A DNA stretch of 64,000 bases from Pedobacter zeae. Its GTDB lineage: Bacteria > Bacteroidota > Bacteroidia > Sphingobacteriales > Sphingobacteriaceae. The stretch is from assembly GCF_014196715.1 (NCBI RefSeq), contig NZ_JACIEF010000003.1, forward strand, positions 277,874 to 341,873. The letters are read 5' to 3'. The notes under the pieces are model-generated. The model was given only the letters and a program-made list of their open reading frames with translations. It was not told the origin of the DNA and made no database searches. Made by a program: the position numbers and the translations under genes. The stretch's first letter is position 1. Each line of letters starts with the position of its first letter. Shown here piece by piece: positions 60,768 to 64,000 of this stretch.

Positions 60768-61580
60768 TTATACCTCAAATGCCCAATCCAAAAAAGCCGG
60801 CATTACACTTTCCCAGGTGGGTACATCGTGTTTACCGCCAACTTTTTCATAGTAAAAAACATTGGCAGGCCTTTTATATCCTTTATCCAGGAGGATTTTT
60901 ACAATATCAATCGTATCGTCGATCGAATCGATGATCATGTTTTTATTCCGGTCGGCCTTTTCATCTTCCGTTCCGGTCATTAACCAAAACCTCATATCAG
61001 GTTTGGTAGCGGAATTTTCAATTTTCGCGTGCATAATCCGGTCGGCATCAGTATATCCCTCGTTCAAATCTTTTTTCCTCCACCAAAATGCTCCGGAGAA
61101 AACACCAACCACATCAAAAACCGAAGGATTGTTCCAGGCAATATCGAAAGCAGACAAACCACCTAAAGAAAAGCCGGCAAAACCTACTTTGCCCGAAACC
61201 GGCATCGCGATTTTCTTTTTCACAAAAGGCAGCAATTCTTTGATAACAAAATCGTTGTAAGCCTGCGCTTTGGCACCGCGGCCCTTAAAATCGGGCACGC
61301 CGGCAACACCATATTCCATTAACCGGTCTTCTGATGCTTTAATGGCCACAACCACCAATCTGTGGTTTCTTTTACCATGATGCGCATCTTCCAAAATCCG
61401 GCTAAAATGCATTTTGGCTACATCCTGGCCATCGTTCAACAGTAAAAGCTCTATTTTTTCGTTTCCTAAAATACCATCGGGTGTGTAAATATCTATTTCT
61501 ACCTCGTGCTTTAAATAAGCAGAAGGTATTTTAAAGCTACTGGTATTAACTTTTACCGATAAAATTGTGGTGTATATCAT
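60768..61580 (-). CDS. Alpha/beta-hydrolase esterase (Fes/EstD-like)
   Basis: A 270-residue hydrolase of the 'putative esterase' family, with the ATG at 61578-61580 (a TTG two codons upstream is possible). The nucleophile elbow is 'VGFAGFSLGGLSAFDIAWN' (Gly-Phe-Ser-Leu-Gly), with the oxyanion region 'IELLLLNDGQDVAKMHF', a late Asp in 'RFWLMTGTEDEKADRN' and the catalytic His in 'GGKHDVPTWESVMPAFL'. There is no signal peptide. It is convergent with the DUF2459 gene and divergent from the second esterase gene, which begins the amidoligase group. Confidence 0.9.
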   Translation of the reverse strand: MIYTTILSVKVNTSSFKIPSAYLKHEVEIDIYTPDGILGNEKIELLLLNDGQDVAKMHFSRILEDAHHGKRNHRLVVVAIKASEDRLMEYGVAGVPDFKGRGAKAQAYNDFVIKELLPFVKKKIAMPVSGKVGFAGFSLGGLSAFDIAWNNPSVFDVVGVFSGAFWWRKKDLNEGYTDADRIMHAKIENSATKPDMRFWLMTGTEDEKADRNKNMIIDSIDDTIDIVKILLDKGYKRPANVFYYEKVGGKHDVPTWESVMPAFLDWAFEV

Positions 61581-61763
61581 AATCAAAATCCCCTATCACA
61601 TGGCTATCGCCTCAGAATGAGGCTGCAAAGGTACAAATCTCCATAAACTATTAATTACCATAGGTTAATTTTTACGATTACACTTTTAATTTGCTTCATT
61701 TTACTGCTCCAACTATTCTTTTTGTAGATTTTAATTTATACCTTAAATCATTCAATTTTTATT

Positions 61764-62471
61764 ATGGTTAAAGAAGAACATAAGAAATGGTACAGCCCTA
61801 ATTTAAGTGGCGAAATCGACATGCTCATCTTTGGTCACGGTGGTATTCCTATCCTACTGTTCCCCACAAGCATGGGGCGATATTTTGAAAATAAGGATTT
61901 CAGGCTGATCGATTCTGTTGAAGGATTCATCAATGAAGGGAAAATCAAAATCTATTGCCCTGATGGCGTTGATAAATTGAGCTGGTACAACAAAAATATC
62001 CATCCTGCCGACCGGGTGAAGAACCACATCTGGTACGATAAGTATTTATTGGAAGAAGTTGCGCCTTTGGCAAGGCACGAAACCGGGCACAGCAAAATTA
62101 TCACTGCAGGCTGCAGTTTTGGAGGTTACCATGCGGCAAACTTTGCTTTCAGGCACCCCTGGCTGGTGAGCCACATGTTCAGTATGAGCGGGGCTTTTGA
62201 TATTTCAGGGCAACTGGATGGTTTCTACAATGACGATGTTTATTTTAACAATCCTGTTGATTATCTTTTGAATAACAGCAACCCCGAACTGCATTACATG
62301 AAAATTGTGCTGGGCACTACCGACCGCGATATGTGCCGGCCTGATAACGAACGATTATCCGGCATCTTAAGGCAGAAAGGAATCGATCATTGGTTGGATA
62401 TCAGGCAAAATGCCGATCACGACTGGCCGATCTGGAGGGAAATGTTCCCGAATTATATTGCACAACTTTAG
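61764..62471 (+). CDS. Putative esterase of the amidoligase gene group
   Basis: A 235-residue alpha/beta-hydrolase without signal peptide. The nucleophile elbow is 'ITAGCSFGGYHAANFAFRHP' (Gly-Cys-Ser-Phe-Gly), the acid is probably in 'LGTTDRDMCRPDNERLS', and the His is in 'NADHDWPIWREMFPNY'. Related proteins in Bacteroidota occur next to ATP-grasp and carboxylate-amine ligase genes. The ATP-grasp gene starts 103 bases downstream on the same strand, so co-transcription is likely. It could cleave or transfer the ester or amide made by the two ligases; that is inference from position. Confidence 0.88.
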   Translation: MVKEEHKKWYSPNLSGEIDMLIFGHGGIPILLFPTSMGRYFENKDFRLIDSVEGFINEGKIKIYCPDGVDKLSWYNKNIHPADRVKNHIWYDKYLLEEVAPLARHETGHSKIITAGCSFGGYHAANFAFRHPWLVSHMFSMSGAFDISGQLDGFYNDDVYFNNPVDYLLNNSNPELHYMKIVLGTTDRDMCRPDNERLSGILRQKGIDHWLDIRQNADHDWPIWREMFPNYIAQL

Positions 62472-62504
62472 TTTGGCCTCCTGGCCGATTTAGGCTACGA
62501 CGGT

Positions 62505-62542
62505 CCAAACAATTAACCGATTAAGCAGTTAAACCATTAACC
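62505..62542. repeat. AATTAACC phrase array before the ATP-grasp gene
   Basis: CAAACAATTAACCGATTAAGCAGTTAAACCATTAACC: four degenerate copies of an AATTAACC phrase about 30 bases before the ATP-grasp start. It resembles the arrays at 8917 and 45430. Confidence 0.5.
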
Positions 62543-62574
62543 ATTTTGGTCAAAAATTAAACTTAATTATACCG

Positions 62575-63630
62575 ATGAAGAAAATAGGGATTTTATTTGG
62601 ACAGGAACGTTCTTTTCCTGAAGCCGTAATTGAAAGGATCAATCAAAAAGCTGAAAAGGGGATCACTGCCGAAGCTGTTAAAATCGACAAAATATTTCAG
62701 AATGCGCCCTTGGGTTATTCGGTAATTATCGACCGTATTTCGCAGGATGTGCCATTTTACCGCGCGTCTTTAAAAAATGCAGCCATCACCGGAACAGCAG
62801 TGATCAATAACCCTTTCTGGTGGAGCGCTGATGAGAAATTTTTTAATAATGCACTGGCCGAACAGATTGGTGTGCCGGTACCTAAAACCGCACTCATTCC
62901 TTCGAGAGAGCACCCCACCGGAACCACATCAGAATCGTTCTCAAACCTCGAAATGCCGTTAGATTGGGACGCCATTTTTGAATATGTGGGATTTCCGGCC
63001 TATATGAAGCCTTATGATGGTGGTGGCTGGAGAGATGTTTATAAACTGCATAACAAAGAAGATTTTTTCGATAAACATAGCGGCACAAAGCAACTGGTGA
63101 TGCTTTTACAGGAAGAGATCATTTTCGAGGAATATTTCAGGTGTTATTGTATCGGAGGTAAACATGTGCGTATTATGCAGTACGATCCGCGAAATCCGCA
63201 TCATTTGCGTTACGCAACCGAGGGTAAATCGCCCGATCCTAAATTGCTTAAAAAAGTAGAGGAATACACTTTAAAATTGTGTACATACTTAGGCTACGAT
63301 TTTAATACGGTAGAATTTGCCGTGCGCAATGGTGTACCTATAGCAATTGATTTCTGCAACCCGGCGCCCGATGCGGATATAAAAAGCGTTGGTCAGGAAA
63401 ATTTCGACTGGGTAGTAGAAACTACGGCCAATTACGCTATCGAAAGGGCAAAAGCACAAAAAGATGGTCAGGATAACTTAACCTGGGGCGAATACATTAA
63501 AGCTTCTGTTGGGAATAAACCTCTAATTGCAAAAGCAACCCCCAAGGCAGCTAAAACCCCAACAGTAAAAAAAGCTACCGCAGCAGAAAAAGCACCGGCA
63601 AAGCCTAAAAAAACAGCACCAAAAAAATAA
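62575..63630 (+). CDS. ATP-grasp ligase with a basic C-terminal tail
   Basis: A 351-residue cytoplasmic ligase of the ATP-grasp superfamily. The ATP-binding pieces are 'AYMKPYDGGGWRDVYKL' (Lys plus Gly-rich loop, about 142-158) and 'VMLLQEEIIFEEYFRCYCIG' on the second strand. The metal-binding end is 'FNTVEFAVRNGVPIAIDFCN' followed by PAPD, with Glu and Asn in the expected positions. Members couple a carboxylate to an amine through an acyl phosphate. The last 33 residues (63529-63627) are a Lys/Ala/Pro/Thr-rich tail, as in nucleic-acid-binding or histone-like tails, unusual for this family. The gene follows an esterase and is 29 bases before a YbdK/GCS2-type ligase. Confidence 0.9.
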   Translation: MKKIGILFGQERSFPEAVIERINQKAEKGITAEAVKIDKIFQNAPLGYSVIIDRISQDVPFYRASLKNAAITGTAVINNPFWWSADEKFFNNALAEQIGVPVPKTALIPSREHPTGTTSESFSNLEMPLDWDAIFEYVGFPAYMKPYDGGGWRDVYKLHNKEDFFDKHSGTKQLVMLLQEEIIFEEYFRCYCIGGKHVRIMQYDPRNPHHLRYATEGKSPDPKLLKKVEEYTLKLCTYLGYDFNTVEFAVRNGVPIAIDFCNPAPDADIKSVGQENFDWVVETTANYAIERAKAQKDGQDNLTWGEYIKASVGNKPLIAKATPKAAKTPTVKKATAAEKAPAKPKKTAPKK

Positions 63631-63659
63631 CTGCGTTTTAAATTCTAACCGAGATTAAT

Positions 63660-64000
63660 ATGAACGAATTTACGCTGGGTGTAGAAGAAGAGTACATGGT
63701 AATTGATCCCGTTACCAGAGAGCTTACTTCGCACGACCAAAAAATTGTAGAGGCCGCACAAAAAATACACAAAGACCAGGTTAAAGCAGAAATGCACCAG
63801 GCAGTGGTAGAAGTTGGTACCGGAATCTGTAAAAATACTACCGAGGCACGCAATGAGATTTCACAGTTGCGTTATACGGTATCGCAACTGGCCGGAGAGC
63901 AGGGTTTAAGAATTGGTGCTGCGGGTACACACCCCTTTTCGCACTGGGAAAAACAGCTCATTACAGAACATCCCCGCTATAACGAAATTGTTAATGAATT
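63660..64000 (+). CDS. YbdK/GCS2-type carboxylate-amine ligase, 5' part
   Basis: The first 113 codons of a gene that runs off the right edge; the ATG is at 63660. The product begins 'NEFTLGVEEEYMVIDPVTRE', and the 'GVEEE' and 'KAEMHQAVVEVGTGIC' segments carry the Glu residues that bind metals and ATP in the gamma-glutamylcysteine ligase-like (GCS2/YbdK) family. It lies 29 bases after the ATP-grasp gene and is surely in the same operon. YbdK has weak glutamate-cysteine ligase activity; family members near ATP-grasp genes are predicted to make small peptides or amides. The amine partner is unknown. Confidence 0.92.
   Translation, partial: MNEFTLGVEEEYMVIDPVTRELTSHDQKIVEAAQKIHKDQVKAEMHQAVVEVGTGICKNTTEARNEISQLRYTVSQLAGEQGLRIGAAGTHPFSHWEKQLITEHPRYNEIVNE

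Follow-up and report, generated by a model that had tools for sequence, protein, structure and literature searches.

A conserved set of amide-ligase-fold genes in Pedobacter zeae and other Bacteroidota: a candidate module for small-peptide or amide synthesis

Amide-bond-forming enzymes of unrelated families, encoded side by side and next to a hydrolase, raise the question of whether they form one pathway and, if so, what that pathway makes. Such an arrangement lies at the right end of a 64,000-nucleotide stretch of the Pedobacter zeae genome (G000:C3:277874-341873, here called the window). The original prediction, of three co-strand genes with a GCSFGG-motif hydrolase and a 29-base gap before the last of them, agrees with our open reading frames: EST1, GRASP1 and GCS2 are co-directional, GRASP1 and GCS2 are separated by exactly 29 bases, and a second esterase gene, EST0, lies upstream and divergent from them (Table 1). 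EST0 had been placed at 60768-61580, which is the extent given by an in-frame ATG at 61580, the open reading frame itself reaching a TTG start at 61586.

The locus beyond the window

GCS2 is cut by the end of the window, and we therefore read the continuation on the same contig. Past base 64000 the full set is (EST0)-EST1-GRASP1-GCS2-GATase1-GRASP2; the guess that further partners would follow the cut end proved right, in that a GATase1 gene and a second ATP-grasp gene are present there. No exact match to the Bacteroidota-type promoter TAnnTTTG was found upstream of EST1, the one match being directed toward EST0 only. Further past the window end (L002:12793-16221) lies a gene for a 1142-aa protein in which GH18-like, polysaccharide-deacetylase-like and family-2 glycosyltransferase parts were recognised by eye.

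Table 1. Genes of the set in the Pedobacter zeae window and its continuation
Gene	Position	Strand	Basis
EST0, PF00756 esterase	60768..61586	-	ORF and Pfam; adjoins the module in most of 80 named loci
EST1, PF00756-type esterase, 235 aa	61764..62471	+	ORF and Pfam
GRASP1, RimK/Ddl/R2K-like ATP-grasp ligase (predicted), 351 aa	62575..63630	+	Weak profile matches and fold
GCS2, YbdK-family (PRK13515), 366 aa	63660..64000, cut; ends L002:7634 = continued 64760	+	Pfam/NCBIfam
GATase1	L002:7642-8469 = continued 64768-65595, outside window	+	PF00117, Cys107-His210-Glu212 triad
GRASP2, glutathione-synthetase-like ATP-grasp (predicted), 395 aa	L002:8589-9776 = continued 65715-66902, outside window	+	Model fold

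Families, folds and active sites

The GCS2/YbdK-type assignment is borne out by Pfam (PF04107, 215 bits) and by the NCBIfam carboxylate-amine ligase family PRK13515 (544.3 bits against a cut-off of 371, over residues 2-365). Its PDB match is E. coli YbdK (E 1e-47), and its aligned active-site residues are invariant. By sequence GCS2 is thus clearly a carboxylate-amine ligase, with a predicted gamma-glutamyl-amine or gamma-glutamyl-cysteine forming activity. At one module locus (L117) GCS2 is present in two copies, with 75% and 69% identity to the query. GATase1 matches PF00117 at 33.9 bits (cut-off 22.8); its C107, H210, E212 triad is intact in 16/16 sequences, and it has no fused synthetase partner. 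EST1 exceeds the cut-off of PF00756 (27.5 bits against 22), and carries the nucleophile motif GCSFGG; its Ser118 and His219 are invariant in the alignment. EST0 carries GFSLGG and is enterochelin-esterase/EstD-like.

GRASP1 has no Pfam match, and its NCBIfam similarity to RimK/LysX is sub-threshold only (1.8e-8; 34.1 bits to the RimK family TIGR00768, below its 143.4 cut-off); 30/43 orthologs match R2K_2, all weakly (best E 1.3e-3). Having no Pfam family and only this remote RimK signal, it is invisible as an ATP-grasp protein to standard annotation. A structural model (pLDDT 81.7, with most of the C-terminal tail below 50) matches, by Foldseek, the ATP-grasp ligases PsnB, ArgX, RimK and Ddl in the PDB, and also MdnC and a Chryseobacterium RiPP enzyme. 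The profile alignment with RimK is weak (probability 2%) yet spans the ATP-grasp core, and lines up K145, E180, R189, E247 and D259 with the catalytic residues of RimK. These five, together with G149-G151 and N262, are invariant in 43/43 orthologs, and so the predicted complete ATP and metal site is intact in alignment with one deviation: the terminal motif is an invariant D-x-x-N and not the usual E-x-N. The modelled fold and the conserved residues (the catalytic Lys, the Glu of the hinge, the Arg and two acids that bind metal) make GRASP1 a member of the ATP-grasp superfamily. A further GRASP1 copy, 34% identical (L045:9631-10596), has lost the GGG loop and D259/N262; it lies in a genome (G035) that is without GCS2, GAT and GRASP2, is probably a degenerate paralog or relic, and was the sole GRASP1 match left out of our ortholog count.

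For GRASP2, the window genome's own protein gave no Pfam match at E 0.01 and no NCBIfam match, and its orthologs match GSP_synth (8/42) and CP_ATPgrasp_2 (8/42) weakly, the best at E 9.4e-4. An AlphaFold2 model of one ortholog (L046), built on an alignment of 42 relatives, has a pLDDT of 91.8 and a pTM of 0.91. Its best PDB match by Foldseek is the putative glutathionylspermidine synthase 3n6x (E 7e-15), followed by eukaryotic-type glutathione and homoglutathione synthetases, YgiC/YjfC and the fungal pseudodipeptide ligase Cp1B; the model confidently suggests a glutathione/glutathionylspermidine-synthetase-type ATP-grasp. Cp1B has been shown experimentally to be an ATP-grasp amide ligase, which couples an amino acid to a dicarboxylic acid and releases ADP (PMC12568646). 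Residues R35, D94, E111, Q113, K297, E347 and R349 of GRASP2 are invariant in 42/42, and the fold includes the ATP-grasp Lys (K297) and metal-ligand Glu residues (E111, E347). Gln113 appears to replace the Asn of ExN, a judgement made by comparing motifs with the R, D, E and N residues of Cp1B and not by structural superposition. The DxxN of GRASP1 and the ExQ of GRASP2 weigh against the ligase reading; both are invariant, and ligase activity is predicted. Profile-profile comparison found no relation between GRASP1 and GRASP2 (probability 0.3%), which rules them out as recent duplicates. Downstream of GRASP2 (L046:12672-12830) is a 52-aa Cys-rich membrane-type ORF, common to 30 listed loci of Pedobacter-type relatives, which may be similar to FeoB-associated Cys-rich proteins.

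The set thus comprises three enzymes of amide-ligase fold from two superfamilies, their active sites intact, together with a GATase and two serine esterases. An element specific to GRASP1 is its C-terminal tail. In the window its residues from about 320 to 351 form a Lys/Ala/Pro-rich, low-confidence tail, which is probably disordered, and a tail of at least 30 aa past the conserved NLTWG, mostly Lys/Ala/Pro-rich, is found in 47/97 orthologs. Two reach 282 aa (L033:8562-10322) and 152 aa (L037:4346-5713), with 10 and 6 RGR[PK] AT-hook-like cores respectively, and many relatives, the window's own protein included, have shorter histone-H1-like Lys/Ala/Pro tails; the other cluster proteins show no comparable upper-end length variation. 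The tail may localise the enzyme to nucleic acid. It is missing in most Chitinophagaceae and Cyclobacteriaceae, and would therefore be dispensable for the core function.

Conservation and co-inheritance

Relatives of GRASP1 number more than 540 in a scan of 84,980 species genomes; the best 80, Bacteroidota wherever the organism was named, were examined. Among these 80 loci, the order (EST0)-EST1-GRASP1-GCS2-GAT-GRASP2 is kept in Sphingobacteriaceae, from Pedobacter to Mucilaginibacter, and in many Cytophagales; many Chitinophagaceae keep (EST0)-GRASP1-GCS2 linked with the remaining genes elsewhere, and some Saprospiraceae-type genomes have the module without GCS2. Intergenic gaps across loci are operon-like, with medians of 29 bp (GRASP1-GCS2), 11.5 bp (GCS2-GAT) and 22.5 bp (GAT-GRASP2), and the GATase and GRASP2 genes are adjacent, often only a few bases apart. 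No seventh gene family was found as an operon partner across lineages: CRP, VOC, DUF2459 and DUF4180 neighbours are confined, among the best 80, to the loci nearest to that of the window's Pedobacter. Nor was any dedicated transporter, resistance gene or precursor conserved with the module, an absence that is unusual for a secreted metabolite and counts against the biosynthetic reading proposed below.

A single panel of 149 genomes of the class was also searched for each protein, with EST1 counted at E < 1e-100 to set it apart from EST0 and other esterases. The 22 genomes with GRASP1 orthologs have GAT in 22/22, GRASP2 in 21/22, GCS2 in 20/22 and EST1 in 18/22, and none of these four occurs without GRASP1 in any of the 149; the co-occurrence foreseen for relatives is therefore present. 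Fisher p values run from 1e-19 to 9e-27 and are inflated by related genomes. This concern is reduced by two observations: five families (f1, f2, f3, f11 and f36) mix carriers with non-carriers, the latter lacking all the genes together, and in four genomes (G110, G022, G066 and G129) the set is still complete or nearly so with its genes at separate places or on separate contigs. The one missing GRASP2 (G118; 220 contigs, 97% complete) may be an assembly gap. GCS2 is absent in two genomes (G001 and G142) where the GATase, GRASP2 and GRASP1 persist, which suggests that GCS2 supplies a building block and is not the core. Across the phylum, GRASP2 is present in 92/297 sampled Bacteroidota genomes, from more than one class. 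Plasmid carriage of the module was considered and rejected: GRASP1, GRASP2 and the GATase gave no match in PLSDB, and the two plasmid-borne YbdK homologs inspected are solo genes without the partners.

Proposed function, alternatives and known systems

We propose, with a probability of roughly two in three, that the genes act together as a single biosynthetic module, whose enzymes carry out successive ATP-dependent ligations to give a small amide or oligopeptide. GCS2 would couple a carboxylate to an amine or amino acid via an acyl phosphate, and its family suggests that this carboxylate is the gamma-carboxyl of glutamate. GRASP1 would add a further residue in the manner of RimK or Ddl. GRASP2 and the neighbouring GATase1, acting as a pair, might then cap a terminal carboxyl, the added group being an amino acid, an amine or glutamine-derived ammonia. 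Both PF00756 esterases could act on the final product, or on an intermediate in ester or thioester linkage, by releasing, trimming or recycling it. In the 2/22 genomes that lack GCS2, the product of the remaining enzymes is probably a simpler variant. The step order and the substrates are guesses, and that the product is a small peptide or amide, as originally predicted, is what we infer from linked, co-inherited ligases with intact sites. Against the proposal, EST1 is lost in 4/22 genomes and GCS2 in 2/22, and so some parts are dispensable; of the original prediction, what concerns the hydrolases is the weakest.

GATases can also be gamma-glutamyl hydrolases of the PuuD type, and such a role would fit degradation. 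In a salvage route resembling the Puu putrescine pathway, GCS2 would gamma-glutamylate an amine and the GATase hydrolyse the product, the other ligases and the esterases being accessory; the complete Cys-His-Glu triad without a fused synthetase, and the existence of GATase1-fold gamma-Glu hydrolases, suit this idea. Nevertheless we consider it unlikely, since the module has no conserved oxidase, aminotransferase, dehydrogenase or importer beside it, a catabolic route should not need as many as three ligases that consume ATP, and the GATase and GRASP2 persist in the two genomes without GCS2. Rather less probable still is protein- or nucleoid-directed peptide tagging, in which the basic tail would direct GRASP1 and the enzyme would attach amino acids to proteins, as RimK does and as proposed for R2K, with the others making or trimming the tag. 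GRASP1 does resemble RimK and ArgX, which act on protein carboxylates, and weakly R2K, a clade proposed to modify proteins, and the Lys/Ala/Pro tails, two of them with RGR[PK] cores, would suit protein or nucleoid targeting; but roughly half of the orthologs, among them most of those from Chitinophagaceae and Cyclobacteriaceae, are tail-less within the same module, and the conserved neighbours include no gene for a carrier or target protein.

We give a similarly small chance to a glutathione-like low-molecular-weight thiol, with GCS2 as a gamma-Glu-Cys ligase, GRASP2 as a glutathione-synthetase-like enzyme and the esterases as S-acyl-thiol hydrolases of the EstD family. This would accord with the glutamate-cysteine-ligase-2 superfamily of GCS2 and the eukaryotic-type glutathione synthetases matched by GRASP2, and PF00756 includes S-formylglutathione hydrolases. 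However, glutathione synthesis has no step for GRASP1 or the GATase, and the bacillithiol enzyme BshC matches in 140/149 genomes, including all 22 with the module, so that the module does not replace the main thiol. Being near universal in the class, BshC discriminates nothing and lowers the idea, and a replacement thiol is unlikely. Very improbable, finally, is a graspetide cluster, in which GRASP1 would cyclise a ribosomal precursor peptide: PsnB, MdnC and the Chryseobacterium RiPP enzyme are among its top Foldseek matches, but the operon and its surroundings contain no small ORF with conservation across lineages (the sole widely shared one, the 52-aa Cys-rich ORF, was seen in the 30 listed Pedobacter-type loci), and GCS2, GATase and GRASP2 are not graspetide components.

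Returning to small-peptide or amide synthesis, a stronger and more doubtful version is that the module makes an undescribed gamma-glutamyl-type peptide or amide that is widespread in Bacteroidota, a missing common metabolite or cofactor and not a strain-specific secondary product. This tentative reading follows from the distribution of GRASP2, one of the three amide ligases, which roughly a third of the sampled genomes of the phylum carry. The mixture of carriers and non-carriers within families implies a function that is dispensable yet inherited as a package, a pattern that points to a specific metabolite in bacteria abundant in soil and water. Because the set combines three ligases with a GATase and two esterases, the product should be accessible by deletion and metabolomics.

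The 2009 amidoligase survey of Iyer et al. reportedly covers many multi-ligase operons, and so prior tabulation of this set is possible; our literature searches, with that survey outside their coverage, returned only the R2K paper and no description of this gene set. According to Burroughs et al. (2015, PMC4431377), unrelated ligases that are linked often catalyse consecutive steps of peptide ligation. The multi-ligase amidoligase operons (ATP-grasp plus COOH-NH2/GCS2 ligases) predicted by Iyer, Burroughs, Aravind and colleagues, cited there as ref. 16, are like our set in having unrelated amide ligases in one operon, interpreted as stepwise ligation in the synthesis of peptide metabolites, and the present module, with at least two such ligases linked and co-inherited, is of this kind. 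What may set it apart is its combination of RimK/R2K-like and glutathione-synthetase-like ATP-grasps with YbdK, a GATase and two esterases.

The individual proteins compare with known families as follows. GCS2 is by score a member of the YbdK/PRK13515 family (PF04107, TIGR02050; YbdK structure 1r8g), whereas the two plasmid YbdK homologs that we inspected (from Paracoccus and Spirosoma, 37-38% identical) are solo, without ATP-grasp partners. GRASP1 shares with RimK, ArgX-LysX and Ddl, and perhaps with the weakly matched R2K clade, the modelled fold and the in-register Lys, Glu, Arg and two acids, but departs from RimK, ArgX-LysX and Ddl in scoring far below their cut-offs, in its DxxN end and in the basic tail of about half of its orthologs. 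GRASP2 has a predicted fold like that of GspS, glutathione synthetase, YgiC-YjfC and Cp1B (Foldseek E 7e-15 to 3e-10, probability 1.00, TM about 0.6), with the 'VLKP' stretch of Lys297 aligning with the same stretch of GspS; it is set apart from them by Pfam scores below cut-off, 10-15% identity and ExQ for ExN, and its operon context is absent from these systems.
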